Positions 36,915 to 52,811 of a stretch of DNA of 64,000 bases are shown one piece after another (the first letter of the stretch is position 1; each line of letters starts with the position of its first letter). Position numbers and translations under genes: made by a program. The notes under the pieces were generated by a model. The model saw only the letters and a program-made list of their open reading frames with translations, had not been told where the DNA came from and made no database searches. The stretch lies in contig NZ_QYUO01000003.1 of assembly GCF_003591035.1 (NCBI RefSeq), forward strand, positions 744,001 through 808,000, in the 5' to 3' direction. Origin of the DNA: Noviherbaspirillum saxi (GTDB lineage Bacteria; Pseudomonadota; Gammaproteobacteria; Burkholderiales; Burkholderiaceae_D).

Positions 36915-37016
36915 AAGCAGTGCCGATGTCAGTGTGCCGGGTAAGCATGCTGATTGGACATGAAAGGCATGCAGTCTCCGCCGGACGCATGTGGGTATAA
37001 CCGACTCAGAGGCATC

Positions 37017-37805
37017 ATGATCGAAATCGAATTCCGCAATGTCGGCAAAAGCTTTATCGACCGACAAACATCCGAGCCGCGCGCTGCGGTGAGCAACCTG
37101 AACATCTCCATCCGCAGCGGGGAGGTGGTTTCGATCATCGGGCCGTCCGGCTGCGGCAAAAGTACGCTGCTCAACATGGGCGCTGGCCTGTATCTGCCGA
37201 CGACGGGCGAGGTCTATATCGGCGGCGAACGCGTGACCAAGCCGGTGCGCAAGGTTGCCTTCATGTTGCAGAAGGATTTGTTGATGCCGTGGCGTACCAT
37301 CCGCGCCAACGTTTCGCTAGGCCTCGAAATCGACGGCGTCGCTGCGTCCGAACGCAAGCGTGTTGCCGATGCATTGCTGGCGAAATGCCATCTCAAAGGT
37401 TTTGAAGAACACTTTCCTTATCAGCTATCGGGCGGCATGCGCCAGCGCGCGGCGCTGGCCCGCACCTTGGCCGTCGATCCGCAGGTGCTGCTGCTGGACG
37501 AGCCATTCTCTGCACTGGATGCGCAGACAAAAATGGTGCTGCAGCAGGACCTTGCCAAAATGGTTTACGAAAAGCGCAAGACCGCTCTCTTCATTACCCA
37601 CGATCTGGTCGAGGCAATCGCCTTGTCCGACCGCCTGCTTGTCATGAGCGAGCGACCGGGAACCATTATTGAAGAAATCGAAGTCAATCTCCCGTTCCGT
37701 GATAACCCGCTCGAACGTCGCAAACTGCCTGAAATCGGTCCGCTGCAAGGCCGTTTGATGGAGCTGCTCAAAGTCGGCAAGGAAGAAGCCGCAGCACTGC
37801 ACTAA
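37017..37805 (+). CDS. NitT/TauT-type ABC transporter ATPase
   Basis: A 262-residue ATP-binding subunit of an SsuB/TauB-like importer. Walker A is GPSGCGKST, the Q-loop is LQKDLLMPW, the signature is LSGGM, Walker B is VLLLDEPFSALDA, and the switch histidine is in FITHD. The start at 37017 has a GAGG ribosome site; an in-frame ATG at 36954 would add 21 residues. First gene of the large operon. In related clusters such importers take up sulfonates, nitrate or aromatic acids such as phthalate. Here the enzymes downstream point to an aromatic acid. Confidence 0.92.
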   Translation: MIEIEFRNVGKSFIDRQTSEPRAAVSNLNISIRSGEVVSIIGPSGCGKSTLLNMGAGLYLPTTGEVYIGGERVTKPVRKVAFMLQKDLLMPWRTIRANVSLGLEIDGVAASERKRVADALLAKCHLKGFEEHFPYQLSGGMRQRAALARTLAVDPQVLLLDEPFSALDAQTKMVLQQDLAKMVYEKRKTALFITHDLVEAIALSDRLLVMSERPGTIIEEIEVNLPFRDNPLERRKLPEIGPLQGRLMELLKVGKEEAAALH

Positions 37806-37837
37806 GCACGCAACCCAACTGATCAACCAGGAGTGAA

Positions 37838-38830
37838 ATGAGTATGAATAAACTTCTCGCATCTCTTTGCTGCAAGGTGGTATTCGCGGCCGCAGCAATT
37901 GTCCCGATCTACGCGCAAGCCGCAATCGAGGAAGTGACTTACCTGTTGCCGGCACCCCCGAACTCGCCCGCCTTCGCACCATGGATGATCGCGCAGCAGA
38001 AGGGCTATTACACCGATGAAAATCTGAAGATCAATTTCGTGACCGCCAAGGGCGGCGTTGACGTTGCCAAGCAGATCGGTGCCGGCAATGCCGTCATCGG
38101 CGGCGCGATCGGCGACACGCCGATCATCGTGCGAGCCAACGGCGTACCGGTAAAGGCCATTGCAGTCCTCGGTGCCGGATCGCTGACCATGGTCGGCGTG
38201 CACCAGAACGAAGGCATCAAATCGCTGCAAGACCTGAAGGGCAAGACCATCACGGTGATGTCGTATACCGACACCACTTACTATGCGTTGCTGGGCAACC
38301 TGAAGACCATTGGCCTGACCAAGAACGATGCGTCGATCCAGGCCGCCGGTCCTTCCGGCGTCTGGCAGATCTTTGCCGGCGGCAAGGCGGCGGCGCTGGC
38401 CGGCGTACCCGACTGGATCGTCAGCGCCAGCGATGCCGGCGCCAAAGTCGATCTGATCGAAACCACCGGCTTCAAGAGCATGGCACAGGCCATCCTCGCT
38501 TCCGATGAAACGATCCAGAAAAACCCGGAACTGCTGAAGCGCCTGGTACGCGCAACGCTGCGCGGGATGGAAGACATCATGAAAGACCCGAAGGCAGCAA
38601 CAGCCGCCTACATCGAGGCGGTGCCCTCCTTCAAAGGCAAGGAAGCAAGCGTCGAGCAGATCTTCAATCTGTATCGCAAGCACGTCTATGCAAATCAGCA
38701 ACCGCTCGGCCAGATCGATGCGGCGCGCATGGAAAACGTGCAAAAGTTTTATGTCAGTGAAGGCATCGTCTCCAAGGCGACGCCGGTCAAGGATTTGTTC
38801 ACCAATCAATTTGTCGGAACAGCTCGATAA
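37838..38830 (+). CDS. NitT/TauT-type ABC substrate-binding protein
   Basis: A 330-residue periplasmic receptor with a signal peptide (about residues 1-29, ending PIYAQA). The SsuA/TauA-type fold is seen in SPAFAPWMIAQQKGYYTDEN, IGGAIGDTPIIVRANGVPVK AIAVL and LKGKTITVMSYTDTTYYALL. It captures the substrate for the adjacent permease and ATPase. A ribosome site (CAGGAG) stands before the ATG. Its stop codon shares its last base with the permease ATG. Confidence 0.92.
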   Translation: MSMNKLLASLCCKVVFAAAAIVPIYAQAAIEEVTYLLPAPPNSPAFAPWMIAQQKGYYTDENLKINFVTAKGGVDVAKQIGAGNAVIGGAIGDTPIIVRANGVPVKAIAVLGAGSLTMVGVHQNEGIKSLQDLKGKTITVMSYTDTTYYALLGNLKTIGLTKNDASIQAAGPSGVWQIFAGGKAAALAGVPDWIVSASDAGAKVDLIETTGFKSMAQAILASDETIQKNPELLKRLVRATLRGMEDIMKDPKAATAAYIEAVPSFKGKEASVEQIFNLYRKHVYANQQPLGQIDAARMENVQKFYVSEGIVSKATPVKDLFTNQFVGTAR

Positions 38831-39669
38831 TGGACACCGCAACTACGGCACCTAAGCTTGCCATGCCTCAGCCACCGAAACACCGTCGTGTGCTCAGCGA
38901 AAAAACCCGTACTGTCGCCGGCAGCCTGATGGTGCTGGTCGTATTCCTGGCAGCGTGGCAATGGGGTCCTGGCCTGCTCGGCATGCCGGAATTCATTCTG
39001 CCCAACTTCACCCGGGTTCTGCAGGAATCGGTGGTGATGTGGAACAACAGCAATTTGCTTGGCCATTTTGGCATCACCGCATTGGAAGTCGTGATCGGTT
39101 TTGCTCTCGGCTCCTTGCTCGGCCTTGCCGTTGGCGTCGCGCTCGGTCTGTCGCCGCGCGCGGAAGCGATGCTGTCGCCCTACATCCTGGCTTTGCAGAT
39201 TGCGCCGAAAGTCGCATTTGCGCCGCTGTTCGTGATGTGGCTGGGTTACACCATCTATCCAAAGATCCTGGTCGCGGTCTTGATCGTCTTCTTCCCGGTG
39301 ATGATCAATGTGCTGTCGGCAGTGCGCACCGTCGATCCGGACATGGTCAACCTCGTGCGTACGCTGAATGCAACCCGCTGGCAGATTTTCCATCTGGTCG
39401 AGTTCCGTTCGGCGATGCCGGCTTTGTTTTCCGGGCTGCGCATTGCGTCGACCCTGGCGGTCATCGGCGTGACCGTTGGCGAACTCGTCGGCGGCAACAA
39501 AGGGCTCGGTTATCTGCTGGTCGACGGCGAGGGGCAGGGCAATACGGCAGCGGTATTTGTCGCTATCTGCGCACTGACCCTGATCGGTATCGTGACCTAT
39601 GGCGCAGTGGTCTGGGCCGAGCGCCGCGTGCTGCACTATCTGCCCAAAGTCAATACGAGCACGGTGTAA
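38830..39669 (+). CDS. NitT/TauT-type ABC permease
   Basis: A 279-residue inner-membrane permease with about six helices. The EAA-loop region is LNATRWQIFHLVEFRSAMPA LFSGLRIA, followed by VIGVTVGELVGGNKGLGYLL. It overlaps the receptor gene by one base (TAATG). It completes the ABC importer of the operon. Confidence 0.92.
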   Translation: MDTATTAPKLAMPQPPKHRRVLSEKTRTVAGSLMVLVVFLAAWQWGPGLLGMPEFILPNFTRVLQESVVMWNNSNLLGHFGITALEVVIGFALGSLLGLAVGVALGLSPRAEAMLSPYILALQIAPKVAFAPLFVMWLGYTIYPKILVAVLIVFFPVMINVLSAVRTVDPDMVNLVRTLNATRWQIFHLVEFRSAMPALFSGLRIASTLAVIGVTVGELVGGNKGLGYLLVDGEGQGNTAAVFVAICALTLIGIVTYGAVVWAERRVLHYLPKVNTSTV

Positions 39670-39682
39670 GGGAGCAATGACA

Positions 39683-40447
39683 ATGTCTTCTACTAATCAG
39701 CTTCTGGCGGGACGGCGGGTGCTGGTCACCGGTGCGGCTCGCGGCTTGGGACTGAGCTTTGCGACAGCCATCGCCGAAGCCGGCGCATCGGTGGCGATGG
39801 CCGATATTCTTGAGGATAGCTTGAATGAGAGCGTAGCTGTTTTGAAGAGGCGCGGTTTCGACGTGCACGGCTGCAAGCTCGACCTGGCGGATCCGATATC
39901 GATCGATGCCTGTGTGAAGAATGTAGTTGAACGCCTCGGTGGCCTGGATGGACTGGTCAACAATGCTGCGGTGACCAACTCTGGCGGCCGCAGCTCGGAG
40001 CAACTCGACATTGCCATGTGGGACAAGGTCATGACAGTCAATGTGCGCGGTACCTGGCTGATGACCAATGCCTGCCTCCCGGCCTTGCGCGAGTCCGGTC
40101 GCGGCAGCATTGTCAATCTGTCTTCCGACACACCGCTGTGGGGAGCGCCGAATCTGCTGGCCTATGTGGCGAGCAAGGGCGCAATCATCGGCATGACACG
40201 TTCGCTGGCGCGCGAGGTCGGGAACGACAACATTACCGTGAATGCGGTGGCACCCGGATTGACGCTGGTGGAAGCGACCGAATATGTGCCCGAACACCGT
40301 CATCGTACCTATCACGATGGACGGGCGCTGCAGCGCAATCAATTACCCGACGACGTATCGGGCGCCGTGGTGTTCGCACTGTCCGATCTTTCCCGCTTTA
40401 TCACGGGGCAACTTCTTGCCGTCAATGGCGGCTTTGTGATGAATTAA
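39683..40447 (+). CDS. Short-chain dehydrogenase/reductase 1
   Basis: A 254-residue classical SDR. It has the cofactor motif TGAARGLGLSFATAIA, NNAAVTNSGG, the catalytic serine in VNLSSDTPLWG, and YVASKGAI with the Tyr-Lys pair. The ATG at 39683 is spaced correctly from AGGGAG; an ATG at 39677 is too close. It should oxidise or reduce a hydroxyl or keto group of a pathway intermediate, perhaps a cis-dihydrodiol made by the Rieske oxygenase of the same operon (inference). Confidence 0.9.
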   Translation: MSSTNQLLAGRRVLVTGAARGLGLSFATAIAEAGASVAMADILEDSLNESVAVLKRRGFDVHGCKLDLADPISIDACVKNVVERLGGLDGLVNNAAVTNSGGRSSEQLDIAMWDKVMTVNVRGTWLMTNACLPALRESGRGSIVNLSSDTPLWGAPNLLAYVASKGAIIGMTRSLAREVGNDNITVNAVAPGLTLVEATEYVPEHRHRTYHDGRALQRNQLPDDVSGAVVFALSDLSRFITGQLLAVNGGFVMN

Positions 40448-40467
40448 TTGAATCTTAGGAGCTAAGG

Positions 40468-41007
40468 ATGAGCGATATGGCAGAACAGCAGAAGATGAAG
40501 CGTAGCTGGGATCAACCGGAGGGCGCCAGTTTTTCCGATTGGATGGATAGCCGCGTTGCGCGTTTTTCGACACGCCAGTACGACTGGAATGCGCTGAAGT
40601 TTCAGGCCGACTATGACCCGAAATACCGCCGGGCGCAAATGCGTTATATCGGCACCGGCGGCACCGGCGTCGCTACGGATTCCAATACCATTCCATCCGA
40701 ACACTTTACGTTTTCGACCATGATCATTCCGGCCGGCCATGAAGGTCCGTCGCATCTGCATATCGACGTCGAAGAAGTGTTTTTCGTCATGCGCGGCAAA
40801 ATCAAGCTGGTGCTAGAAAAAGATGGTGAACGTTATGAAACCATTCTGACCGATCGCGACGTCGTCTCGGTTCCGCCGGGCGTCTATCGCGAGGAAATCA
40901 ATATTGGCGAAGAAGATGCGCTGATGTGCGTCATGCTCGGTTCGAAAAAACCGGTGACGCCGACCTATCCTCCCGAGAGCCCACTCGCGAAAATCAAGCG
41001 TGGCTGA
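40468..41007 (+). CDS. Cupin-domain protein
   Basis: A 179-residue single-cupin protein. Cupin motif 1 is clear (GHEGPSHLHIDVEEVFFVMR G) with ligands H96, H98 and a glutamate at 102/103. Motif 2 (VVSVPPGVYREEINIG) lacks the usual histidine. It may bind metal with fewer ligands and act as a dioxygenase, isomerase or binding protein. Its place between transporter, SDR and hydrolase points to a catabolic step. Confidence 0.85.
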   Translation: MSDMAEQQKMKRSWDQPEGASFSDWMDSRVARFSTRQYDWNALKFQADYDPKYRRAQMRYIGTGGTGVATDSNTIPSEHFTFSTMIIPAGHEGPSHLHIDVEEVFFVMRGKIKLVLEKDGERYETILTDRDVVSVPPGVYREEINIGEEDALMCVMLGSKKPVTPTYPPESPLAKIKRG

Positions 41008-41008
41008 A

Positions 41009-41893
41009 ATGACGACTGCCAGCACATCCTCTGCCCGCTCCGCCGATCTGCAGGAATCGCTGTTCCTGCTGAACCAGCGATTCCCCGAGCGCGCCGTTGA
41101 AGTGAACGGCAGCGTCGTTTCATATCGGACCTGCGGCAGCGGGCCGGCGATCGTGTTACTGCATGGGATCGGGTCCGGCGCCGCATCGTGGCTGCCCTGC
41201 GCACTGCGCCTGGCCGAAGAAGCCACGGTGATTGCGTGGAATGCGCCGGGTTACGGCGCTTCATCGATGTTGTCCAGCCAGTCTCCAACCGGAACGGAGT
41301 ACGCCGCGCGGCTTGAGCAATTGCTCGCGGCATTGGGTATCGAGCAATGCGTGCTGGTCGGCCATTCGCTGGGAGCCATCATGGCGGCGGCGTATGTTGC
41401 TTCGGGCACGACACGCATCTCGCGCCTGGTGTTGATCAGCCCGGCACAGGGCTACGGCAGCGAAGAAAAGCGTGCGCGCGGCGAAGCGGTGGCGCAGGAG
41501 CGGATGACGGCATTGCAGACGCTGGGCATCGCCGGCATGGCGGAGCACCGCTCGCGCCGCATGCTGTCGGAAAATGCGAGCGATGCGCAGCGCGCATGGG
41601 TGCGCTGGAATATGCAGCAGTTGCATCCGGAGGGATACACGCAAGCCGTGCATCTATTGTGTGGCGATGATATTTACCGCTACGCGCGGCGCGGCATGCC
41701 GGGCGCTGTATATTGCGGCAGCGCCGATGCCATTACCACGCCGCAAGACAGCAGGGAGCTGGCACGGGAAATCGAATTGCCATTCGCGCTGATCGACGGT
41801 GCAGGCCATGCCTGCTACGTCGAGCAAGCCGACGCGGTGGCATCGGCCATCCTCGAGAACTCAACGTCCAATCAAATACAACATCATGAATAA
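41009..41893 (+). CDS. Alpha/beta-fold hydrolase
   Basis: A 294-residue alpha/beta hydrolase. It has the oxyanion-hole segment VLLHGIGSGAASWL, the nucleophile elbow GHSLG with S120, a probable acid in GSADAITTPQDS and the catalytic histidine in GAGHACYVEQ. Its resemblance to meta-cleavage-product hydrolases suits an extradiol pathway. It starts at 41009 just past the cupin stop; a GTG at 41000 overlapping the cupin is an alternative. Its 3' end overlaps the IclR gene. Confidence 0.9.
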   Translation: MTTASTSSARSADLQESLFLLNQRFPERAVEVNGSVVSYRTCGSGPAIVLLHGIGSGAASWLPCALRLAEEATVIAWNAPGYGASSMLSSQSPTGTEYAARLEQLLAALGIEQCVLVGHSLGAIMAAAYVASGTTRISRLVLISPAQGYGSEEKRARGEAVAQERMTALQTLGIAGMAEHRSRRMLSENASDAQRAWVRWNMQQLHPEGYTQAVHLLCGDDIYRYARRGMPGAVYCGSADAITTPQDSRELAREIELPFALIDGAGHACYVEQADAVASAILENSTSNQIQHHE

Positions 41894-42719
41894 AGCAGAG
41901 CTACCAGAAGAAGAGTCGCAAGAAAAATATTCCGTACCAGGGCTGGAGCGCGGTTTGCGCCTGCTGTGCGAGTTCAACCGCCAGGACAAGACCCTGTCCG
42001 CACCGGAACTGGCACGCCGTCTCAGTGTTCCGCGTTCGACGGTATTTCGCCTGCTTACCACGCTGGAGCGCATGGGTTTTGTCGAGCGCACCGAAGGCGG
42101 CCGCGACTACCGGCTTGGCATGGCAGTGCTGCGTCTCGGGTTTGAATATCTGGCATCGCTGGAACTGACTGAAATCGGCCGTCCCTTGCTCGACCGGCTG
42201 CGTGATGAAATCGGTTATTCCTGCAATCTGGTGGTGCGCGACGGCAGGTCGATAGTCTATGTGGCCAAGTCGGTCACACCGACCGCATTCGCCAGTTCCG
42301 TGACCGTGGGGACTCGCTTGCCGGCACACGCCACCGTGCTTGGACGCGTGCTGCTGGAAGACCTGTCACTGGCTGAGCTGCGCAAGATTTATCCGGAAGG
42401 ACAGCTGGAAGTCTTTTCCGAAAACACACCGAAGACCGTTGTCGACCTCTTCAATATGGTTCAGCAGGACCGCGAGCGCGGTTATGTCCTGCAAGAAGGC
42501 TTCTTCGAGCGCGGCATTTCGACGGTCGCCGCACCGGTGCGTGACCATACCGGCAACGTGGTGGCGGCGCTGGGCGCAACCATCCCGGCTCCGCATATCG
42601 ATGCCGACAAGCTTGAAGTCATCGTGCGCCGGGTCCGTGAAACCGCAAGCGAATTGTCGCGCTTGCTTGACCATGCGCCGGAACGTTCGGGCAAGGTTGT
42701 CAACATGTGGCAAGGATAA
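41886..42719 (+). CDS. IclR-family regulator within the operon
   Basis: A 277-residue IclR regulator. The winged HTH is at residues about 16-75 (VPGLERGLRLLCEF; APELARRLSVPRSTVFRLLT) and the GAF-like effector domain follows (YSCNLVVRDGRSIVYVAKSV; FERGISTVAAPVRDHTGNVV AALG). It overlaps the hydrolase gene by 8 bases, so it is cotranscribed with its probable targets. The paired 20-bp sites at 36791-36914 are candidate binding sites. Confidence 0.92.
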   Translation: MNKAELPEEESQEKYSVPGLERGLRLLCEFNRQDKTLSAPELARRLSVPRSTVFRLLTTLERMGFVERTEGGRDYRLGMAVLRLGFEYLASLELTEIGRPLLDRLRDEIGYSCNLVVRDGRSIVYVAKSVTPTAFASSVTVGTRLPAHATVLGRVLLEDLSLAELRKIYPEGQLEVFSENTPKTVVDLFNMVQQDRERGYVLQEGFFERGISTVAAPVRDHTGNVVAALGATIPAPHIDADKLEVIVRRVRETASELSRLLDHAPERSGKVVNMWQG

Positions 42720-42724
42720 GCAAG

Positions 42725-43528
42725 ATGCAACTGATTCATCTCGACGGCAAGGTGGCCGTCGTCACAGGAGGCTCTTCCGGCATCGGTCTGGCGACGGTCG
42801 AGCTGTTGCTTGAAGCCGGCGCCGCGGTGGCCTTCTGCGGGCGCGACGCCGAACGCCTCGCAACGGTCGAGCACCGTTTGCGTGACCGTTTTCCGCAGGC
42901 GCGCCTGCTGTCGGCGGTGTGCGACGTTCTTGTGCCGGAACAGGTTAAGGCCTTCGCCGCCAGGGTTGAACAGGAACTTGGCACGGTCGGGATGCTGATC
43001 AATAACGCAGGCCAGGGCCGCGTCTCGACCTTTGCCGATACCGAAGACGCGGCCTGGGTGGAAGAACTGCAATTGAAATTCTTCTCGATCATTCATCCCA
43101 CGCGCGCCTTCCTGCCTCAGTTGCAAAAGGCTGCCGATGCAACCGTCGTGTGCGTCAATTCCCTGCTCGCGGTACAACCCGAGCCGCACATGGTGGCAAC
43201 CTCCGCCGCGCGCGCCGGCGTGCACAATCTGGTGCGCTCGCTGGCGACTGAATTCAGCCCTCATGGAATCCGCGTGAACGGCATTCTGATCGGCCTGGTC
43301 GAGTCCGGCCAATGGCGCCGACGTTACGACGCGCGCAGCGAGGAAGAGCGCGACCTTTCATGGCAGCAGTGGACGGCCAGACTGGCGCAAAGAAAACAGA
43401 TTCAACTCGGCCGTCTTGGCCTACCAGAGGAAGCGGCACGCGCCATCGTGTTCCTCGCAACACCGCTTTCTTCGTACACAACAGGCAGCCACATCGATGT
43501 TTCAGGAGGACTATCCCGCCATGCCTAA
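42725..43528 (+). CDS. SDR-fold protein lacking the catalytic Tyr-Lys
   Basis: A 267-residue SDR with an intact cofactor motif (TGGSSGIGLATVELLL) and NNAG. The active-site serine S146 (VCVNSLLAV) is present. Where YxxxK is expected the sequence is TSAAR (T159, R163). It cannot use the usual SDR mechanism, so it may be a lyase-like, binding or altered-chemistry member. It starts at 42725 after AAGGATAAG, and its end overlaps the ThDP gene by 8 bases. Confidence 0.85.
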   Translation: MQLIHLDGKVAVVTGGSSGIGLATVELLLEAGAAVAFCGRDAERLATVEHRLRDRFPQARLLSAVCDVLVPEQVKAFAARVEQELGTVGMLINNAGQGRVSTFADTEDAAWVEELQLKFFSIIHPTRAFLPQLQKAADATVVCVNSLLAVQPEPHMVATSAARAGVHNLVRSLATEFSPHGIRVNGILIGLVESGQWRRRYDARSEEERDLSWQQWTARLAQRKQIQLGRLGLPEEAARAIVFLATPLSSYTTGSHIDVSGGLSRHA

Positions 43529-45203
43529 GCAAAACAAAGTTACCGTCGGCTGCGCCATCGCAGCTTTTCTCGAGCAATGCAATGTCAAGGCTGCGTTCGG
43601 TGTGATTTCCATTCACAACATGCCGATCCTCGACGCCTTCGGCGAGCGCGGCAAGATCCGATTCATTCCGGCGCGCGGCGAAGCCGGCGGCGCCAACATG
43701 GCCGATGCCTATGCGCGTACGACCGGCGGGCTGGGCGTCTGCCTGACCAGTACCGGCACCGCCGCTGGCAACGCTTCCGGCGCCATGGTCGAGGCATTGA
43801 CCGCCGGTACACCGATGCTGCACCTGACCGGCCAGATCGAGACGCCGTACCTCGACCAGAGCCTGTCATACATCCATGAAGCACCGGATCAGCTGGCGAT
43901 GCTCAAGGCCGTGTCAAAGGCGGCGTTCCGCATCCGTAGCATCGACACTGCGATCAGCACCGTGAAACTGGCCGTACAGACCGCTCTGACGCCGCCCATG
44001 GGTCCGGTCAGCGTAGAAATCCCCATCGATATCCAGGCCGCGCTGATTGATATGCCGGCCGATTTGCGTCCGCTGCCGATTGCTTGTCAGGAACCTTCGG
44101 CGCATGCCCTTGACGAATTGGCTGCACGCTTGATGAAGGCCAAACGGCCGATGTTGTGGCTGGGCGGTGGCACACGCGGCGCCGGCGCACAAGTCAAGCG
44201 CCTGATGGACATGGGCATTGGCGTGGTAACGACAACACAAGGCCGGGGCGTGGTGCCGGAAGACGATGCGCGTTCGCTCGGCGCCTTCAATCTGCACAAG
44301 CCGGTGGAAAATTTTTATCAGACCTGCGATGCGATGGTCGTCGTCGGCTCCCGCCTGCGCGGTAATGAAACCTTGAAGTACGAGCTGAAGCTTCCGCGTC
44401 CGCTGCTGCGTATCGATGTCGACCCTGCCGCCGAAGGCCGCTGCTACCAGAGCGACTACTTCGTATGCGGCGACGCGGCGCTGGCACTGCAAGGCTTGGC
44501 CGATCGACTGGAAGGCAAGATGCAGATCGACCCATCCTTCATCGGCGACTTGCAGAAGGCGCGCGACACCGCCGTCGCCGGCCTGATCGACGGCCTGGGC
44601 CCATATAGCGCCTTGGTGGCGAAGCTGCAGGAAGCGGCCGGCCGCAGCTTCAATTGGGTACGCGACGTTACCGTATCGAACAGCACCTGGGGCAATCGCT
44701 TCCTGCGCATATTCGATCCGACAGCCGGCGTGCATGCATTGGGAGGTGGCATAGGTCAGGGCCTGGCAATGGCGATCGGCGCTGCAGTCGGCGCGGCCGA
44801 GACGGCGTCCCGGAAAAAGACCTTCTGCCTCGCCGGTGACGGCGGTTTCATCCTGAACCTGGGTGAGCTGGCGACCGCGGTGCAGGAACGTGCAGACATG
44901 GTGATCGTCTTGATGAATGACAAGGGCTATGGCGTCATCAAAAATATTCAGGATGTGCAGTACGGTGGCCGCCGCCATTACGTCGATCTGCATACGCCGG
45001 ATTATGCGCTGCTGTCGAAGTCGCTGAGCCTGCGTCATGCACGCATCAGCAACCTGGCCGATGTGGAAACCGGCTTGCGCACTGCGTTGTCCGAACCGGG
45101 TCCTTTCCTGCTCGAAATCGACATGCTGTCTATCGGTAGCTTCAAGACTGCGTTTGCCGGGCCGCCGGTCAAGGTCGAGGAAGCTGCGGCTGCTGTGGTC
45201 TAA
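43521..45203 (+). CDS. ThDP-dependent enzyme (acetolactate synthase/benzoylformate decarboxylase type)
   Basis: A 560-residue thiamine-diphosphate enzyme with Pyr, central and PP domains. The activating glutamate is in ARGEAGGANMADAYARTTGG. The cofactor motif is AGDGGFILNLGE followed by LMNDKGYGVIKN. CLTSTGTAAGNASGAMVEAL is the substrate-side loop. Family members decarboxylate 2-oxo acids or cleave/ligate next to a carbonyl. A role on an oxo acid from ring fission is likely (inference). The ATG at 43521 follows AGGAGGA and overlaps the SDR stop. Confidence 0.9.
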   Translation: MPKQNKVTVGCAIAAFLEQCNVKAAFGVISIHNMPILDAFGERGKIRFIPARGEAGGANMADAYARTTGGLGVCLTSTGTAAGNASGAMVEALTAGTPMLHLTGQIETPYLDQSLSYIHEAPDQLAMLKAVSKAAFRIRSIDTAISTVKLAVQTALTPPMGPVSVEIPIDIQAALIDMPADLRPLPIACQEPSAHALDELAARLMKAKRPMLWLGGGTRGAGAQVKRLMDMGIGVVTTTQGRGVVPEDDARSLGAFNLHKPVENFYQTCDAMVVVGSRLRGNETLKYELKLPRPLLRIDVDPAAEGRCYQSDYFVCGDAALALQGLADRLEGKMQIDPSFIGDLQKARDTAVAGLIDGLGPYSALVAKLQEAAGRSFNWVRDVTVSNSTWGNRFLRIFDPTAGVHALGGGIGQGLAMAIGAAVGAAETASRKKTFCLAGDGGFILNLGELATAVQERADMVIVLMNDKGYGVIKNIQDVQYGGRRHYVDLHTPDYALLSKSLSLRHARISNLADVETGLRTALSEPGPFLLEIDMLSIGSFKTAFAGPPVKVEEAAAAVV

Positions 45204-45216
45204 AAAGGAAAAAGCC

Positions 45217-46023
45217 ATGTTGCACGTATCGATGATTGGTTGCGGCGCCATTGGCGTCGGTGTAATGGAATTGCTCAAGAGTGATCCTGAAGTGAGCTTC
45301 GATCTGGTGATCGTGCCGGAGGCCGGGCTCGACGCGGCGCGTCCGGTAGTGTCATCGCTGGCACCGCAGGCACGCGTCGCAGCCCGTCTCGATGATGATG
45401 GCGTGCGGCCCGACCTGCTGATCGAATGCGCAGGCCATCGTGCAATTGAAGAGCACATCTTGCCGGCATTGGCGAGGGGAATCCCCTGCATGGTGGTATC
45501 GGTCGGTGCCTTGTCCGAGCCAGGCCTGGCGGAACGGCTGGAAGCGGCGGCAAGGCAAGGCAAGACACAGGTGCAATTATTGTCCGGCGCCATCGGCGCC
45601 ATCGATGCGCTGTCGGCTGCAAAGATCGGCGGTCTCGATTCCGTCATCTACACCGGCCGCAAGCCGCCGCAGGCATGGAAGGATACGCCGGCCGAAGCCT
45701 TGTTCGCGCTCGACAGCCTGGAGACGGCCACGGTCATTTTCGAAGGCACCGCACGCCAGGCTGCGCGCCTGTACCCGAAGAACGCGAATGTCGCAGCCAC
45801 GTTGTCGCTGGCAGGTCTCGGCATGGACCACACGCAGGTGCGCCTGCTGGCCGATCCGGGTGTGACAGAGAACGTGCATCACGTGGAAGCCAAAGGCGCG
45901 TTCGGCGGTTTCGAACTGACCATGCGCGGCAAACCGCTTGCCGCCAATCCTAAAACCTCTGCGTTGACGGTATTCAGCGTGGTGCGTGCGCTGGGTAACC
46001 GCGCCCATGCGCTTGCAATCTGA
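45217..46023 (+). CDS. L-aspartate dehydrogenase-like protein
   Basis: A 268-residue NAD(P)-dependent dehydrogenase of the NadX type. The N-terminal Rossmann motif is MIGCGAIGVGVMELL and the domain typical of aspartate dehydrogenases contains YPKNANVAATLSLAGLGMDH TQVRLLADP. Aspartate dehydrogenases interconvert aspartate and iminosuccinate. Inside a catabolic operon with a RidA protein, it may act on an amino/imino intermediate or, as other relatives do, with the aldehyde dehydrogenase next to it. Ribosome site AAAAGGAAAA. No nad genes are nearby, so NAD synthesis is unlikely. Confidence 0.88.
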   Translation: MLHVSMIGCGAIGVGVMELLKSDPEVSFDLVIVPEAGLDAARPVVSSLAPQARVAARLDDDGVRPDLLIECAGHRAIEEHILPALARGIPCMVVSVGALSEPGLAERLEAAARQGKTQVQLLSGAIGAIDALSAAKIGGLDSVIYTGRKPPQAWKDTPAEALFALDSLETATVIFEGTARQAARLYPKNANVAATLSLAGLGMDHTQVRLLADPGVTENVHHVEAKGAFGGFELTMRGKPLAANPKTSALTVFSVVRALGNRAHALAI

Positions 46024-46045
46024 GTCATACGACATAAAGGCAGAC

Positions 46046-47521
46046 ATGAACCTGAGTGAAACACTTCCTATCTGCATCGCCGGCAACTGGCGCGTGGGCC
46101 AGGGCGATCGGTATGCAAGCCTCTACCCGGCTACCGGCGAGCCGGTGGCTTACCTGAATGCCGCCAATCTCGACGATGTGGAAGAAGCGATCCAGGGCGC
46201 GGACAAAGCGTTCCGTACCAGCGGCTGGGCACAAAAGAAGCCGCATGAACGCGCTACCGTGCTGTACCGGGTTGCACAGCTGATTCGCGAGCGCGGCGAA
46301 GAGCTGGCACAGCGCCAGCGCCTCGACAACGGCAAGCCGATCAGCGAAACGCGCAATCTGGTCGGCAGCGCCGCTGCGACATTCCAGTTCTTTGCAGCGG
46401 CTTGCGAGACGCTCGAAGAAACCATTACCCCTATGCGCGGCGACAACCTCACGATGAGCGTGTACGAGCCCATGGGCGTAGTAGCCGCGATTACACCGTG
46501 GAATTCCCCGATCGCCAGTGAAGCGCAAAAAATGGCGCCGGCGCTTGCCGCAGGCAATGCAGTCGTGGTCAAGCCGGCCGAAGTTACTCCGCTGATGGCG
46601 CTGGAGCTGGCAAGGATTTGCGAAGAAGCCGGCGTGCCAAAAGGCTTGATCAGCGTGTTGCCTGGCAAAGGTTCGGTGATCGGCGACGCCATCACGTTGC
46701 ATCCGCTGGTGCGTCGCGTGTCGTTTACCGGCGGCACGACTACCGGCAAGCATATCGCGCATATCGCCGCCGACAAGATGATGCCGGTATCGCTGGAATT
46801 GGGCGGCAAGTCGCCGACCATGGTGTTTGAAGACGCCGACCTCGACCATGCGGTGGCCGGCGTGTTGTACGGGATTTTCAGTTCATCGGGCGAATCGTGC
46901 ATCGCCGGCTCGCGGCTGTTTGTCGCGCACGGCATTTACGATGCGTTCATGGAGCGCCTTGCCGCCGGCGCGGCCGCGCTGCGCGTCGGCGATCCGGCCG
47001 ACGAGCGTACGCAACTTGGCCCATTGATCACGGCGCGTCATCGCGAATCGATCGAAGCTTACGTGGCGCTGGGCGTGGAAGAGGGCGGCCGCTTGCGTAC
47101 CGGCGGCATGCGTCCGCAAGGCGCGGCCTTCGAGCGCGGCTACTACTACACGCCGACCATCATCGAAGGCGTACGCAACGATCAGCGCATCTGCCAGGAA
47201 GAGATTTTCGGGCCGGTACTGGTGGCGATGCCGTTCAGCGATGAAAACGATCTGATCGAACAGGCTAACGATAGCGTCTATGCGCTGGCCGCCGGCATCT
47301 GGACGCGCGATTACAAGAAAGCCTGGCGTTTCGCCCGCGCCGTGCAGGCCGGCAATGTATGGATCAACACCTACAAGCAGTTTTCGATCTCGACCCCGTT
47401 CGGCGGCTGGCGCGACAGCGGCCTCGGACGCGAAAAGGGTCGTCTCGGCATTCTGCAATACATGGAACAGAAGAGCCTCTACTGGGGCATGAATGAACAA
47501 CCGTTGCCCTGGGCGAACTGA
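46046..47521 (+). CDS. Aldehyde dehydrogenase
   Basis: A 491-residue NAD(P)-dependent aldehyde dehydrogenase. The general base is E251 (VSLELGGKSP) and the catalytic cysteine is C285 (SSGESCIAG). TPWNSPIASEAQKMAPALAA and PFGGWRDSGLGREKG are conserved. It should oxidise an aldehyde or semialdehyde, such as a 2-aminomuconate- or hydroxymuconate-type semialdehyde from ring cleavage (inference from context). Length normal. Confidence 0.93.
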   Translation: MNLSETLPICIAGNWRVGQGDRYASLYPATGEPVAYLNAANLDDVEEAIQGADKAFRTSGWAQKKPHERATVLYRVAQLIRERGEELAQRQRLDNGKPISETRNLVGSAAATFQFFAAACETLEETITPMRGDNLTMSVYEPMGVVAAITPWNSPIASEAQKMAPALAAGNAVVVKPAEVTPLMALELARICEEAGVPKGLISVLPGKGSVIGDAITLHPLVRRVSFTGGTTTGKHIAHIAADKMMPVSLELGGKSPTMVFEDADLDHAVAGVLYGIFSSSGESCIAGSRLFVAHGIYDAFMERLAAGAAALRVGDPADERTQLGPLITARHRESIEAYVALGVEEGGRLRTGGMRPQGAAFERGYYYTPTIIEGVRNDQRICQEEIFGPVLVAMPFSDENDLIEQANDSVYALAAGIWTRDYKKAWRFARAVQAGNVWINTYKQFSISTPFGGWRDSGLGREKGRLGILQYMEQKSLYWGMNEQPLPWAN

Positions 47522-47545
47522 GCCTGCCGGGTGAGGAGAAATGCA

Positions 47546-48511
47546 ATGGATGTATTAGGTATCGATGAAATCACCTACGGCGCGGATGATCTGCCGCTCT
47601 GCAAGACGTTCTTCGCCGATTGGGGCATGACGCTTGCCGAAGAAAACGAAGGCTTGCTGGTGTATGAAACGCAAAACGGTTGCCGCGTGGTGGTCAAGCG
47701 CAGTGACGCCGCCGACCTGCCGCCGGCAATCGAGCCGGGCCCGACGCTGCGTGAAGTCGTGTGGGGCGTCTCGGCACCCGAAGTGCTGGAACGCTTTGCG
47801 GCCCGCATCGCCGATGCACCGGGTTATGTGAATACCGGCGACCGGCTCGGCTGCACCGATCCCAATGGCCTGGCTGTGCGTTTTCAAGTCACGCGCAAAC
47901 GTGAAATCGACGTCGAATGCGCGGCAATGAATACCTGGTCGCACCGGCCGCGCGTCAATCAGCGCAGCCCGGCCTACGAGAACGCCGCACCGATCGAAGT
48001 CGGTCACGTGGTGTTCTTCGTGAAGGATGTGAATGCCTGCGAAGAGTTCTACTGCAAGAACTTCGGTTTCGTCCCCTCCGACCGCTACCCGGGCCGCGGC
48101 GCCTTCCTGCGCTGCGCGGCCGAAGGCGGCCACCATGACCTGTTCCTGCTGCAGACGCCGGAACGCCGCGCCGGCCTGAACCATGTGGCCTTCACGGTGC
48201 GCGACATTCATGAAGTGTTTGGCGGCGGCATGCATATGGCGCGCAAGGGTTGGGACACGCAGCTCGGCCCGGGCCGGCATCCGATTTCGTCCGCTTACTT
48301 CTGGTATTTCCGCAATCCGGCGGGCGGCCTGATCGAATACTACGCCGACGAGGACCAGCTCGATGCCGAGTGGGAAGCAAGGGAGTTCGAGCCTGGTCCG
48401 ACCGTGTTCGCCGAATGGGCAATCGAAGGCGGCATCGACGGCAACACCCGTCGCCAGCGCAATGCCGATGCCCCGAGCGGCAAGTTCCTGACCGATAAAC
48501 CGAAGCACTGA
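47546..48511 (+). CDS. VOC-type extradiol dioxygenase
   Basis: A 321-residue two-module VOC protein like type I extradiol dioxygenases. The active C-terminal module keeps the 2-His-1-carboxylate iron triad H154 (VGHVVFFVKD), H213 (LNHVAFTVRD) and E264 (GLIEYYADED). The N-terminal module (MDVLGIDEITYGADDLPLCK) is degenerate. It is the likely ring-opening enzyme of the operon, cleaving beside a catechol or aminophenol. GGAG ribosome site. The next gene begins 13 bases later. Confidence 0.88.
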   Translation: MDVLGIDEITYGADDLPLCKTFFADWGMTLAEENEGLLVYETQNGCRVVVKRSDAADLPPAIEPGPTLREVVWGVSAPEVLERFAARIADAPGYVNTGDRLGCTDPNGLAVRFQVTRKREIDVECAAMNTWSHRPRVNQRSPAYENAAPIEVGHVVFFVKDVNACEEFYCKNFGFVPSDRYPGRGAFLRCAAEGGHHDLFLLQTPERRAGLNHVAFTVRDIHEVFGGGMHMARKGWDTQLGPGRHPISSAYFWYFRNPAGGLIEYYADEDQLDAEWEAREFEPGPTVFAEWAIEGGIDGNTRRQRNADAPSGKFLTDKPKH

Positions 48512-48524
48512 ACCGGAATCAAGC

Positions 48525-48851
48525 ATGCCGAACGAAGCGAACACCATGCTGCTGACCGTGATCCTGAAGCATGACCAGTCGAAAAACCTGGATGCGATCC
48601 AGGAACACATGAAGCAGGTCGACTGGTGGGAACGTTTTCCGGTGGAAGGCACGCGCGTCGTCTCATGGACGGTGGCGATGGGCCTGGGCCAGATCGTCAC
48701 GCTGGAACTGGCGCCGGAACTGCTGCCGCTGGTGAACGTGGAACTCGAGCGTTCGGCATGGGGCGTATTCCGTACCGAGTGCTATCCGACTTACGACTTT
48801 GTACCCGTGCGCGAGCGTATTCGCGAGCGCGTTAGAAATGGAGGTAAATGA
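48525..48851 (+). CDS. Small protein of the catabolic operon (unknown)
   Basis: A 108-residue protein with alternating strands and helices (LLTVILKHDQSKNLDAIQEH; MGLGQIVTLELAPELLPLVN VELE; WGVFRTECYPTYDFVPV). It resembles dimeric alpha-beta-barrel (EthD/muconolactone-isomerase-like) proteins in outline, but I do not recognise the family. Its stop overlaps the start region of the next small gene. It may be an isomerase or an accessory of the Rieske oxygenase. Confidence 0.75.
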   Translation: MPNEANTMLLTVILKHDQSKNLDAIQEHMKQVDWWERFPVEGTRVVSWTVAMGLGQIVTLELAPELLPLVNVELERSAWGVFRTECYPTYDFVPVRERIRERVRNGGK

Positions 48852-49075
48852 TGCAAGAGCTCTATCTCAATCCCCACCAGGCGCGCCGTCGTCAGCCTAC
48901 CGCCTACGAAGATTTGCTGGGCGACTCGATTGAACGCGCCTACGCGGCAGGCGTACATGACCTGGCCGGTCTGGTGGCACACCTGAACCGCACCGGTCCG
49001 AATTGTCCGGCCGGCGGCGTATGGACTGAAGACTCGTACCGGGCAGAGATCGCGCGTCTGGCCGCCGAGTGCTGA
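48851..49075 (+). CDS. Small recombinase-like HTH protein
   Basis: A 74-residue protein starting MQELYLNPHQARRRQPTAYE. The sequence DLLGDSIERAYAAGVHDLAG LVAHLN and TGPNCPAGGVWTEDSYRAEI resembles the short helix-turn-helix module seen in resolvases (how to start a new base-reading region). The same kind of stand-alone protein is often found beside Rieske oxygenases, where its job is unknown. It starts on the second of two tandem ATGs after GGAGGT. Confidence 0.75.
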   Translation: MQELYLNPHQARRRQPTAYEDLLGDSIERAYAAGVHDLAGLVAHLNRTGPNCPAGGVWTEDSYRAEIARLAAEC

Positions 49076-49096
49076 TTATTTGAGAAGGATAGTGTG

Positions 49097-50122
49097 ATGA
49101 GAACGAATGCAAATGATCCGGTTGACGCAGTGCTCGCCGTTGGTTTGAAAGATCTGTGGTATCCGATGTGCCCATCCAGCTTCGTCGCCGAGCGTCCGGT
49201 GTCGCTGCGCCGCCTCGGTCGCAAGTTTGTGCTGTGGCGTGAAGCGTCCGGTGTGCTGCATGCGCTGGAAGATCATTGCCCGCACCGCGGCGCACCGCTG
49301 TCTCTGGGTATCGCGCTCGGCGACCGTATCGCCTGCGGCTACCACGGCGTGCAGGTACGTGCCGATGGTGTGGTGATGAGCGTGCCCGGCAGCCCCGGCT
49401 GCAAGCTGGAAGGCGCAAAGGCCACCCGTTCGTATCACGTACGTGAAGCAGCAGGCGCCATCTTCCTGTACAACTCCAGCGTCGACATCACCGATCCGCC
49501 GCCGCTGAATCTGCCGACCGAATTGACCGACGACGTGCACTCGCATTTCTTGTGCTACACCGAATGGAAAGGCGATTACCGCTACGTGCTCGACAATGTG
49601 ATGGACCCGATGCACGGCACTTTCCTGCACAAGCAGTCGCACTCGATGGCCGAAGGCGATTCGACCGCTGCTTTCCGCGTGCGTGAAACCGATACCGGTT
49701 TCGTATTCGAGAAGGAAGGCCAGCGCGGCGTCAACTTCGACTGGACCGAGTGGGCCGACACAGGCCTGCACTGGATGCGTCTCGAGATTCCGTATCCGAA
49801 GACCGGCGGCCCCGGCGGCAACTTCATCATCATCGGCAGCTACACGCCGATTTCCGAAAACGTCTCGGCCGTGTTTCACTGGCGTTGCCGCAAGGTCGAT
49901 GGCTGGCAGCGCGACACCTGGCGTTTCCTGTACCAGAATCGGCTCGAAGCGCGGCACTGGGCAGTGCTTGAACAGGACCGTGCGATCCTGGAAATGATGG
50001 AGCCGGACGCCAACCAGCGCGAGATGCTGTATCAGCATGATATGGGCATCGTCCGCCTGCGCCGCCACTTGCGCAACCTGGCCAAGGCGCAGCTTGAAGC
50101 CGGTGCGGAGAAGGCAGCATGA
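49097..50122 (+). CDS. Rieske non-heme iron oxygenase, alpha subunit
   Basis: A 341-residue oxygenase of the vanillate-demethylase/phthalate-oxygenase type, with no separate beta subunit. Rieske 2Fe-2S ligands are C61, H63 (CPHRGAPLSLG) and C80, H83 (CGYHG). The mononuclear iron site includes H173 and H178 in DNVMDPMHGTFLHKQSH. With the reductase two genes later it would hydroxylate, dihydroxylate or O-demethylate the imported aromatic. ATG at 49097 after GAAGGAT. Confidence 0.93.
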   Translation: MRTNANDPVDAVLAVGLKDLWYPMCPSSFVAERPVSLRRLGRKFVLWREASGVLHALEDHCPHRGAPLSLGIALGDRIACGYHGVQVRADGVVMSVPGSPGCKLEGAKATRSYHVREAAGAIFLYNSSVDITDPPPLNLPTELTDDVHSHFLCYTEWKGDYRYVLDNVMDPMHGTFLHKQSHSMAEGDSTAAFRVRETDTGFVFEKEGQRGVNFDWTEWADTGLHWMRLEIPYPKTGGPGGNFIIIGSYTPISENVSAVFHWRCRKVDGWQRDTWRFLYQNRLEARHWAVLEQDRAILEMMEPDANQREMLYQHDMGIVRLRRHLRNLAKAQLEAGAEKAA

Positions 50123-50541
50123 GAGAGCGGGTTCCGGTCCGGCATGTGAAGACCGATGAGGTCGCTGAATTGCCGATCGCGACGTGGTCGAATTGCCTGG
50201 TAGTCGGCAATGAAATTGCACTGTCCGGCATGACTGCGCATCCGGCTTCACGTCAAGCCGAACTCGGAACTTACGATCAGACGATGACGGTGCTGAAAAA
50301 AATCCGCGCGCTGGTCGAAGCGGCCGGCGGCGGTATCGAAAACATTTACAAGCTTGTCATTTACGTCACGGATATCGCCGACAAGGACGAAGTGGGACGG
50401 GCACGGCGCGACTTCTTTCAGGCGCCGTACCCCTGTTCGACGCTGATCGGCGTCAGCGGCCTGGTGTTCCCGGAACTGAAAGTCGAGATCGATGCATTCG
50501 CGCGGCTCGACATTGATCTGCGCACTGCCGTGCAATCTTAA
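50119..50541 (+). CDS. RidA-family protein
   Basis: A 140-residue protein of the RidA/YjgF family. Conserved parts are VGNEIALSGMTAHPASRQAE, AAGGGIENIYKLVIYVTDIA and PYPCSTLIGVSGLVFPELKV EIDAFA. Known members hydrolyse imines/enamines, and one branch is 2-aminomuconate deaminase. Its place among ring-cleavage and aldehyde-dehydrogenase genes favours such a deaminase role. It overlaps the Rieske gene by 4 bases (ATGA). Confidence 0.9.
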   Translation: MRERVPVRHVKTDEVAELPIATWSNCLVVGNEIALSGMTAHPASRQAELGTYDQTMTVLKKIRALVEAAGGGIENIYKLVIYVTDIADKDEVGRARRDFFQAPYPCSTLIGVSGLVFPELKVEIDAFARLDIDLRTAVQS

Positions 50542-50555
50542 TTTGAGTAGTCATC

Positions 50556-51509
50556 ATGAATACCAGCGCCCTTATCTCCGTCCGCGTCCAAGCGATGCGC
50601 TTTGAAGCCGCCGGCATCGTCAGCGTTGAACTGGTGTCGCCGCAAGGCGGCGAGCTGCCCGCATTCGAGGCCGGCGCGCATGTCGACCTGCATCTGCCCA
50701 ACGGCATCGTGCGCAGCTATTCGCTGCTGAATTCGCCGCAGGAGCGCCATCGCTATGTCGTCGGCGTGCTGAACGACCGCAACAGCCGCGGCGGATCGCG
50801 TTATGTGCATGAACAATTGCGTGTCGGCGCGACGATTCCGATTTCGGCGCCCCGCAATAATTTTCCGCTCGATGAGTCGGCAGCGCATTCGGTCCTGATC
50901 GCCGGCGGTATCGGCATCACGCCGATTTCATGCATGTTCAGCCGCCTGCGCAGTCTTGGCAAACCGGCGGAGCTGCTGTATTGCGCACGCTCACGCACGG
51001 AGGCGGCGTTCTGCGACGAGTTGCTGGCGCAGGACGGCGTGCAGGCGCATTTCGACCAGGACAAGAGCGGGCCGCCCGACCTGCGCAGCTACCTCGCCAG
51101 CAAGCCGAAAGACGCGCATTTTTATTGCTGCGGACCGACACCCATGCTGAATGCGTTTGAAAGCATTTGCGAAGAACTCGGCTTGCCGAACGTGCATATC
51201 GAACGTTTCGCAGCGACCGAACAGGTCGAAGCAGTACAGGGCAGCGACTATGTCGCCTATCTGGAGCGCACAAAGAAATCGATTACGGTGCCGGCCGGGA
51301 AGTCCTTGCTGGATGCCCTGCTCGAAGCAGGAATGGATGTCGACCACAGCTGCCGCGAAGGCGTCTGCGGCGCCTGCGAAACCAAAGTGCTCGACGGGAT
51401 TCCCGAGCACCGGGACGGCGTATTGAGCAAAGCCGAACGCGCGAGCAACAAGACCATGATGGTATGCGTGTCCGGATGCCGGGGACAAAGACTGGTGCTG
51501 GATTTGTAA
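50556..51509 (+). CDS. Rieske-oxygenase reductase (VanB/PDR type)
   Basis: A 317-residue electron-transfer protein. It has an FMN-binding barrel (VRSYSLLNSPQERHRYVVGV), an NAD domain (LIAGGIGITPISCMFSRLRS; HFYCCGPTPMLNAFE) and a C-terminal plant-type 2Fe-2S ferredoxin domain (DHSCREGVCGACETKVL and a later MMVCVSG cysteine). It passes electrons from NAD(P)H to the Rieske oxygenase. Last enzyme gene before a terminator. Confidence 0.93.
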   Translation: MNTSALISVRVQAMRFEAAGIVSVELVSPQGGELPAFEAGAHVDLHLPNGIVRSYSLLNSPQERHRYVVGVLNDRNSRGGSRYVHEQLRVGATIPISAPRNNFPLDESAAHSVLIAGGIGITPISCMFSRLRSLGKPAELLYCARSRTEAAFCDELLAQDGVQAHFDQDKSGPPDLRSYLASKPKDAHFYCCGPTPMLNAFESICEELGLPNVHIERFAATEQVEAVQGSDYVAYLERTKKSITVPAGKSLLDALLEAGMDVDHSCREGVCGACETKVLDGIPEHRDGVLSKAERASNKTMMVCVSGCRGQRLVLDL

Positions 51510-51555: not shown

Positions 51556-51746
51556 AACCTGATGAAAATTTCGAAACGTTGTTTTATAGGTGAAACGAGA
51601 TGGCGATCACTCGTTTCCCGATGACTTGCTTTTGCCGGGATCGGCGTTATGCGATGCATGTGCCATGAGGTATGCCGTCCACACGCAATGCGCATGTGGA
51701 TACAACAAAGCGGCGTTTGCCGTGTTTTTCAACGAAGGGGAGTGAG

Positions 51747-52811
51747 ATGAAGAAGGTTCTGATTGCCGTAGCAGCAACCGGCTTGACCGCCGGTGCATTC
51801 GCGCAAAGCAATGTAACGATCTACGGCAGCATGGATGCCGGCGTTGCGTACATCAACAACATTGGCGGCAACTCGGCTGTGCGTCTTGATCAGGGTACGA
51901 TGCAACCGGACCGCATCGGCTTTCGCGGCGTCGAAGATTTGGGTGGCGGATTGAAAGCCAACTTCCAGCTTGAGACAGGCTTCTTTGTCGACACCGGCGC
52001 AATGACGAACGCTGGACGATTGTTCAACCGGGCCAGCACGGTTGGCCTGTCCGGCAATTTTGGCGCAGTCACCCTCGGCAACATGCCTGACATCGTGTTC
52101 GATTACGCAGGCAAGCTCAGCAACGGCTTCCAGCTCACCAATTTTTACCTGTTCCATCCGGGTAACCTCGATACGCTGGCCAATACCTACCAGTTTAATA
52201 ATGCAATCCGCTATACCTCGCCGACGTTTTCCGGCCTGACGGTCAGCGGTATGGTCGGTTTGGGCGAAGTGGCCGGCGACAGCGGCCGAGGCCGCAATGT
52301 GAGCGCCGGCGCGAATTACGTGCAGGGTCCGCTGCGCCTGGCCCTGGCGTACTCGAAGCAGAACGATCGCCCTGCAGGTTTCGCAGGCACCTTCCTCGGC
52401 AGCCTCGGCCTCGGCAATGGCGGAACGGTGTTCGACAGCCTGACCACTATCGCGGCCGGCGCCGGCTATGCCATCGGCAACGTTCGCATGCACGCGTTGT
52501 ACACGCAAAGCAAGATCGAACTGCCGACCATCAGCCCCACCCAGAAGAACGTGGACATCGGCACCAGCTGGCGCTATACCCCGGCCAATGCGCTGAATGT
52601 CGGTTATTCGCATTCCAGGCTTGAAGGCGCACGCTATAACCAGATCAGCGTCGGCAATGCGTACTCACTGTCCAAGCGCACGGAAATCTACGCACAGGCG
52701 GCTTACCAGCGCGCAGGCGGCACCGCACGCTTCGCCATCCAGAACAATACGGGCGTGTCGAGCAGCGATAGTCAATTGGTGACGACGGTCGGCGTGCACC
52801 ATTCCTTCTAA
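51747..52811 (+). CDS. Trimeric porin 1
   Basis: A 354-residue outer-membrane porin of the betaproteobacterial type. The signal peptide is MKKVLIAVAATGLTAGAFAQ and the mature start SNVTIYGSMDAGVAYINN. GFRGVEDLGGGLKANFQLET is a diagnostic strand-loop, and the C-terminal residue is a phenylalanine (VGVHHSF) as needed for barrel assembly. GGGGAG ribosome site. It probably lets the pathway's substrate through the outer membrane. Confidence 0.93.
   Translation: MKKVLIAVAATGLTAGAFAQSNVTIYGSMDAGVAYINNIGGNSAVRLDQGTMQPDRIGFRGVEDLGGGLKANFQLETGFFVDTGAMTNAGRLFNRASTVGLSGNFGAVTLGNMPDIVFDYAGKLSNGFQLTNFYLFHPGNLDTLANTYQFNNAIRYTSPTFSGLTVSGMVGLGEVAGDSGRGRNVSAGANYVQGPLRLALAYSKQNDRPAGFAGTFLGSLGLGNGGTVFDSLTTIAAGAGYAIGNVRMHALYTQSKIELPTISPTQKNVDIGTSWRYTPANALNVGYSHSRLEGARYNQISVGNAYSLSKRTEIYAQAAYQRAGGTARFAIQNNTGVSSSDSQLVTTVGVHHSF

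Follow-up and report, generated by a model that had tools for sequence, protein, structure and literature searches.

An uncharacterised, widely shared operon of Noviherbaspirillum saxi that pairs ring-cleavage genes with an L-aspartate dehydrogenase gene and may serve catabolism of a nitrogen-containing aromatic acid

The stretch of Noviherbaspirillum saxi DNA analysed here (contig NZ_QYUO01000003.1, positions 744,001 to 808,000; the window, 64,000 nucleotides, in whose coordinates features are given) carries a single tightly packed operon on the plus strand at 36954-51509, its genes head to tail with intergenic gaps of -8 to +32 bases. Profile searches of the operon proteins against Pfam and NCBIfam recovered, all on the plus strand, the genes named in the original prediction, which had been drawn from the letters alone, and added the gene of a small HTH_62 protein. 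An ATP-binding cassette (ABC) importer comes first: an NrtC/SsuB/TauB-like ATPase (36954-37805, alternative start 37017; PF00005, with all NCBIfam models under cut-off), an NMT1/SsuA-like periplasmic receptor (37838-38830, PF09084) and a permease (38830-39669, PF00528). There follow a short-chain dehydrogenase/reductase, SDR1 (39677-40447, PF13561), proposed to be a cis-dihydrodiol dehydrogenase partly from gene order in relatives; a cupin (40468-41007, Cupin_2) weakly matching quercetinase QueD; an alpha/beta hydrolase (41000-41893, Abhydrolase_6, PF12697) with a Ser-Asp-His triad; and an IclR/PcaR-type protein (41886-42719) that would regulate the operon, which is probably inducible. The central genes encode a second short-chain dehydrogenase/reductase, SDR2 (42725-43528; NF005468, 452 bits against a cut-off of 266), a thiamine diphosphate (ThDP) enzyme proposed to be a 2-oxo-acid decarboxylase (43521-45203; NF005470, 916 bits against 495), L-aspartate dehydrogenase (AspDH, 45217-46023), an aldehyde dehydrogenase (ALDH, 46046-47521, PF00171) and a two-domain ring-cleavage dioxygenase of the vicinal oxygen chelate (VOC) superfamily (47546-48511; PF00903, Glyoxalase/extradiol match). 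The last genes encode p108, a small protein without a Pfam family and with a predicted ferredoxin-like fold (48525-48851), the HTH_62 protein (48848-49075; PF20552, 114 bits), a single-subunit, VanA/DdmC-like Rieske oxygenase alpha subunit with Rieske and VanA_C domains (49097-50122), a Rid-like protein (50119-50541, Ribonuc_L-PSP), and a reductase with a C-terminal 2Fe-2S domain (50556-51509, Fer2/NAD), the proposed partner of the Rieske protein. A porin gene (51744-52811, Porin_4, PF13609) begins 234 bases after the end of the operon.

This gene set is widely shared but uncharacterised, and it recurs beyond chance. An alignment of the VOC protein, used to scan genomes, returned at least 595 pattern stretches and 476 relatives, of which the best 80 were kept; their hosts are mostly Burkholderiales and Pseudomonas, and those named include Herbaspirillum, Noviherbaspirillum, Collimonas, relatives of Duganella, Cupriavidus, Ralstonia, Pigmentiphaga, Delftia, Comamonas, Variovorax and Ramlibacter. 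Distribution is patchy: judged at E 1e-110, the VOC gene is present in 13 of 145 family genomes, that of N. saxi counted. Gene content was counted from gene calls in the 72 loci that possess ALDH, VOC, Rieske and reductase genes (L036, L045, L048, L074, L091, L096, L097 and L105 were left out, six of these eight being stretches of less than 16 kb). IclR (71 loci), SDR2 (70), the ThDP enzyme (69), AspDH and HTH_62 (64 each) and SDR1 (62) are the most constant, followed by the cupin (59) and the hydrolase (54); Rid (28), p108 (27), the ABC receptor (23) and a flavin monooxygenase (22) are less frequent. The p108 and Rid genes are coupled, with both present in 27 loci, neither in 44, and Rid alone in one. 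Distant relatives of p108 (about 50%) also occur at L165 (9668-9973) and L166 (from 8527), in two genomes without a VOC gene at the same threshold, and no other cluster gene was recognised near them. Near the cluster in other loci are transporters of the major facilitator superfamily (MFS) or tripartite-type receptors, named from sequence.

A compact locus of Acinetobacter (L220) encodes, in order, a ferredoxin, a small unnamed protein, the Rieske alpha subunit, SDR1, the VOC enzyme, an FAD reductase and an MFS transporter, followed by the cupin, hydrolase, SDR2, AspDH, ALDH and ThDP enzyme. The enzyme set recurs in Caballeronia pNK83 (L221), where HTH_62 is annotated and the VOC gene lies near the end. 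Nine window enzymes are matched in these two loci, at 40-66% identity in Acinetobacter and 42-73% in Caballeronia; no relatives of p108, Rid or the flavin monooxygenase were found in either stretch. In Acinetobacter, Caballeronia and many Cupriavidus loci, the SDR1 relative comes immediately after the Rieske gene, and the Acinetobacter sequence of Rieske, SDR1 and VOC genes follows the order in which textbooks give ring dihydroxylation, rearomatisation and extradiol cleavage.

The ring-attack enzymes appear catalytically intact. In the VOC protein, H154, H213, E264, H245 and Y254 are invariant in a 19-row alignment and are kept in the window protein and 79 relatives, with one gap at E264, and H196/H197 are also listed among the active-site residues of the window protein. 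H154, H213 and E264 are the 2-His-1-carboxylate metal ligands and H245 and Y254 the second-shell His and Tyr, an arrangement that places the protein among type I extradiol dioxygenases. Likewise, the CxH...CxxH and D-x2-H-x4-H...D sites of the Rieske protein, presumably its cluster ligands and iron site, are kept in 75 rows (three rows are gapped at the first two ligands), as would be expected of a non-haem oxygenase. Three further VOC paralogues (33-36% identity) lie on contig C2 of genome G000 at loci L122, L123 and L124, each close to the gene of a distant flavin monooxygenase, and these are probably other aromatic clusters.

The original prediction of an aspartate-dehydrogenase-like enzyme, considered unusual, proved well founded, and the gene is near-universal in the cluster. 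The window protein is a genuine member of the L-AspDH family because it scores 493 bits against the equivalog NF009827 (cut-off 226) and because the ends of published enzymes, read from primers, agree with those of its cluster relatives. The primers printed in PMC5554190 for the L-aspartate dehydrogenases ReuAspDH and DelAspDH translate to MSMLHVSM...HAVSI and MNIAVI...TAIAI, respectively. Five Cupriavidus cluster enzymes share the MLHVSM start, without the two preceding residues, and the HAVSI end; two Delftia cluster enzymes start with MTMNIAVI and MTMKIAVI and both end in ATAIAI. Judged by these ends, the two published enzymes are close relatives of the cluster enzymes. The activities given in PMC5554190 for DelAspDH favour amination (32.8 U/mg) over deamination (5.1 U/mg). 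Seven of the eight loci without AspDH were followed into their whole genomes (L051 was left out), and all seven genomes encode AspDH elsewhere at 66-71% identity; three controls in this search matched too.

The Rid-like protein has Ser in place of the RidA Arg (Arg105-equivalent) in 30 of 30 sequences, ungapped against Arg-bearing relatives, and its closest solved relative, PA3499 (2ig8, 154 bits), likewise aligns with Ser there. Imine hydrolysis by RidA requires the Arg, as stated in PMC4433059, where about 10% of RidA proteins are said to carry Ser at that place; because of that fraction, the Rid-like protein can be called only likely, on the replaced residue, to be inactive as an imine hydrolase. 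Its identity as a RidA imine hydrolase was rejected on the replaced Arg, and so was that as a 2-aminomuconate deaminase, to which the match is weak (23.6-24.5 bits to non-RidA-like chains, 24.5 bits for 6izh). The deamination of RidA type that had been predicted is not supported, and the nitrogen step points to AspDH instead of Rid.

Among the remaining enzymes, the ThDP protein has its Glu and GDG...N in every one of 75 rows, and one of its next relatives is 5-guanidino-2-oxopentanoate decarboxylase (248 bits, cut-off 500). The hydrolase triad is kept in 54 of 54 rows. The cupin keeps HxH and Glu; where the motif has its last His, 63 of 63 rows have Arg.

A minus-strand group at 55342-58608, absent from the original prediction, comprises a second porin (55342-56481, PF13609), a metallo-beta-lactamase-fold hydrolase (56478-57404, PF12706) and, adjoining the latter, a NicC-like flavin monooxygenase (57445-58608), the orthologue of which lies within the cluster in other genomes. 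It is found between the VOC and Rieske genes in Herbaspirillum, in certain Collimonas and Pseudomonas and in a small number of other hosts; certain Cupriavidus loci have it farther downstream. The fetched stretches of 23 of the 80 loci include it. Of the 145 family genomes, ten carry it, and each of the ten belongs to the 13 that have the VOC gene (p 3e-13, kinship ignored), corresponding to four against five of 44 genera. Fifty further cluster genomes do not have it in the locus, and 30 of these encode it elsewhere. Its closest solved relative is 6-hydroxynicotinate 3-monooxygenase (NicC; 278 bits with the L100 protein as query), yet the L100 protein has Asn and Phe in place of two NicC histidines, presumably the active-site pair H47 and H302, and the window protein has the same motifs; identity with NicC was rejected on these grounds. 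A molybdenum hydroxylase of CoxLMS type adjoins the unlinked flavin monooxygenase in seven of 18 fetched places (five Cupriavidus and two Comamonas), lies between it and the main cluster in the genomes of L068 and L077, and is present in 20 of 30 flavin monooxygenase carriers versus two of 20 non-carriers (p 1e-4, kinship ignored). Neither enzyme is essential, because each is absent from some cluster genomes. One unlinked relative (L161) also has the metallo-beta-lactamase-fold hydrolase beside the flavin monooxygenase.

An aromatic-degradation operon of this composition is of a known kind, but its ending is unusual. That it serves catabolism of the aromatic-acid type and contains enzymes of the Rieske, extradiol, ALDH and nitrogen-handling classes had been predicted, and the families are confirmed. 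As for the substrate, the interpretation that we favour, with even confidence, from the enzyme families is the carboxylic acid of an N-containing aromatic. A bicyclic N-heteroaromatic is the likeliest form, with kynurenate, quinaldate and their hydroxylated relatives as examples. The acid would enter through the porin and the ABC importer; the Rieske oxygenase and its reductase would introduce O2 into the carbocyclic ring, the resulting cis-diol would be rearomatised by SDR1, and extradiol cleavage by the VOC enzyme would leave a 2-oxo-acid side chain. This side chain might be reduced by SDR2 and decarboxylated by the ThDP enzyme to an aldehyde that ALDH would oxidise. The remaining N-ring would be opened with the help of the hydrolase and cupin, and in many strains of the flavin monooxygenase: a split of a dihydroxypicolinate ring at C4-C5 and N-C6 would yield aminofumarate, the enamine form of iminosuccinate, for reduction by AspDH to L-aspartate. 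The narrower proposal, that the cluster encodes the bacterial kynurenate (quinoline) pathway, an orphan so far, whether or not the molybdenum hydroxylase feeds quinaldate in, and with nitrogen leaving as iminosuccinate to a dedicated L-AspDH, is tentative and clearly less likely than not because no result names the substrate.

Several points weigh against the broader N-heteroaromatic interpretation. Gene set, gene order, conservation, intact catalytic residues and a genuine AspDH family are what the comparisons establish, and it is from enzyme families that we infer the substrate and every reaction. SDR1, cupin and hydrolase are missing from eight of the 72 loci, namely seven that are Pigmentiphaga-like and the short stretch L095, AspDH being the only enzyme sought elsewhere in those genomes, and the co-occurrence counts ignore kinship between genomes. 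An SDR that reduces an enone is unusual, VanA-type Rieske enzymes are often demethylases, and among solved structures the ThDP enzyme comes closest to an acetolactate synthase (166 bits), not to a decarboxylase. Twenty of the 50 further genomes and three of the 13 family genomes lack the flavin monooxygenase; the genome of the window has no close relative of the molybdenum hydroxylase (best 43%), the best solved match of which is 4-hydroxybenzoyl-CoA reductase rather than a quinoline enzyme. ReuAspDH was listed at only about 1.1-1.2 U/mg in crude lysate (PMC5554190).

Among the alternatives, a nitrogen-free monocyclic aromatic acid is a rather unlikely substrate. The Rieske, SDR and VOC enzymes would then generate a meta-cleavage product, ALDH would oxidise the semialdehyde and the ThDP enzyme would decarboxylate, while AspDH would only feed oxaloacetate/aspartate or NAD synthesis. 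Consistent with this are the scores of ALDH against 5-carboxymethyl-2-hydroxymuconate semialdehyde dehydrogenase (470 bits, cut-off 638; betaine-aldehyde dehydrogenase scores higher at 496, likewise under cut-off) and of the VOC enzyme against HpaD (71 bits, cut-off 321), and the filing of PA3505 of Pseudomonas aeruginosa under nicotinate metabolism in PMC9732424. However, no tautomerase, hydratase, aldolase or nadA/nadC-type protein was found among the window operon proteins by profile search, and AspDH, in 64 of 72 loci and all seven genomes followed up, is too constant for a side role. It is improbable that the Rieske enzyme works like the vanillate and dicamba demethylases, removing an O- or N-methyl group from a methoxylated or N-methylated aromatic acid to make a catechol for the VOC enzyme. 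Its VanA_C domain and dicamba O-demethylase among its solved relatives (61 bits) are in keeping with demethylation, but the score of carbazole 1,9a-dioxygenase is no lower (66 bits), the gene after the Rieske gene encodes an SDR in both L220 and L221, and the window operon yielded no recognisable protein of a family known to handle formaldehyde, although an SDR or ALDH could serve. The 2-aminophenol/2-aminomuconate route with RidA-type deamination, which had been put forward originally and agrees in broad enzyme classes, is very improbable in view of the Ser of the Rid-like protein, its absence from 44 of 72 loci, a ring-cleavage enzyme of VOC type (PF00903 only) where 2-aminophenol 1,6-dioxygenase is LigB-type, and a ThDP enzyme and AspDH left unexplained. 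Profile search of the window operon proteins also gave no 4-oxalocrotonate decarboxylase, hydratase or aldolase for this route, and none is annotated in the Acinetobacter and Caballeronia clusters (the extra genes of other loci were not all family-searched).

Directly after the porin, a chemoreceptor (methyl-accepting chemotaxis protein) is encoded at 52875-54434 on the plus strand (PF00015/PF12729; 4HB_MCP, HAMP and MCPsignal domains). Because related proteins recur in 15 of 80 loci, chemotaxis to the substrate of the cluster is possible. Beside it is an FRG-domain protein (54513-55307, plus strand), the PADLOC candidate PDC-S15, which recurs near a few cluster relatives. Upstream of the operon, a weakly TIR-effector-like gene followed by that of a SMEK-domain protein (33529-35922, plus strand; PF21941, PADLOC Aga-type match) are possible defence genes, and an IS110-family transposase is encoded at 30267-31352 on the minus strand.

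The genes PA3498-PA3514 of P. aeruginosa PAO1 are the apparent counterpart of the cluster: the likeness through PA3499 comes from sequence, and the gene order presumably matches in the remainder. In the text of PMC12771364, PA3498-PA3503 and PA3504-PA3514 are called uncharacterized operons, in agreement with the original view that no described operon matches. In a published description, PA3512-PA3514 form a putative ABC transporter and are part of an extensive locus that also covers aldehyde and acetolactate metabolism, and PA3505 is the gene filed under nicotinate metabolism (PMC9732424). A literature search found no paper that assigns a substrate to the cluster.

The 2-aminophenol/2-aminomuconate pathway resembles the cluster in having ring cleavage, ALDH and a Rid-fold protein, but its ring-cleavage enzyme is of another family, the window Rid-like protein is without the Arg, and the window operon is without downstream meta-pathway genes. 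The lum genes of riboflavin/lumichrome catabolism, as described in PMC12746152, combine a ThDP-dependent heterocycle decarboxylase, a Rieske dioxygenase and an extradiol enzyme in one N-heteroaromatic pathway; compared by that description, the lum system shares these three enzymes with the window cluster but differs in its P450 and xanthine-oxidase steps, in a multi-component Rieske enzyme (LumA-D), and in that no AspDH is named in the abstract.

Enzyme classes for the kynurenate steps are present in the one operon by Pfam and NCBIfam assignment, but these classes fit other substrates too. The kynurenate ('quinoline') pathway of Pseudomonas (EC 1.14.99.2, 1.3.1.18 and 1.13.11.10) proceeds, as in KEGG/MetaCyc, through 7,8-dioxygenation, diol dehydrogenation, 8,8a-cleavage and side-chain reduction, and then decarboxylation to a formylethyl and oxidation to a carboxyethyl dihydroxypicolinate. 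This route agrees with the cluster class by class at each step, the reduction, without a clear candidate, being the weakest. Degradation of kynurenate by Pseudomonas extracts is reportedly the subject of a 1961 title, and to our knowledge no genes have been assigned to the pathway; a literature search found no reference gene for kynurenate-dependent Rieske or extradiol activity. Relatives of two published L-aspartate dehydrogenases belong to such clusters, and the position of AspDH beside a Rieske and an extradiol enzyme has so far had no explanation. If the substrate is an N-heteroaromatic acid, an old orphan pathway becomes testable; if it is kynurenate, a pathway known from extract work of the 1960s would gain its genes, and the catabolic L-aspartate dehydrogenase its reason, in a cluster that recurs in soil Burkholderiales and Pseudomonas.

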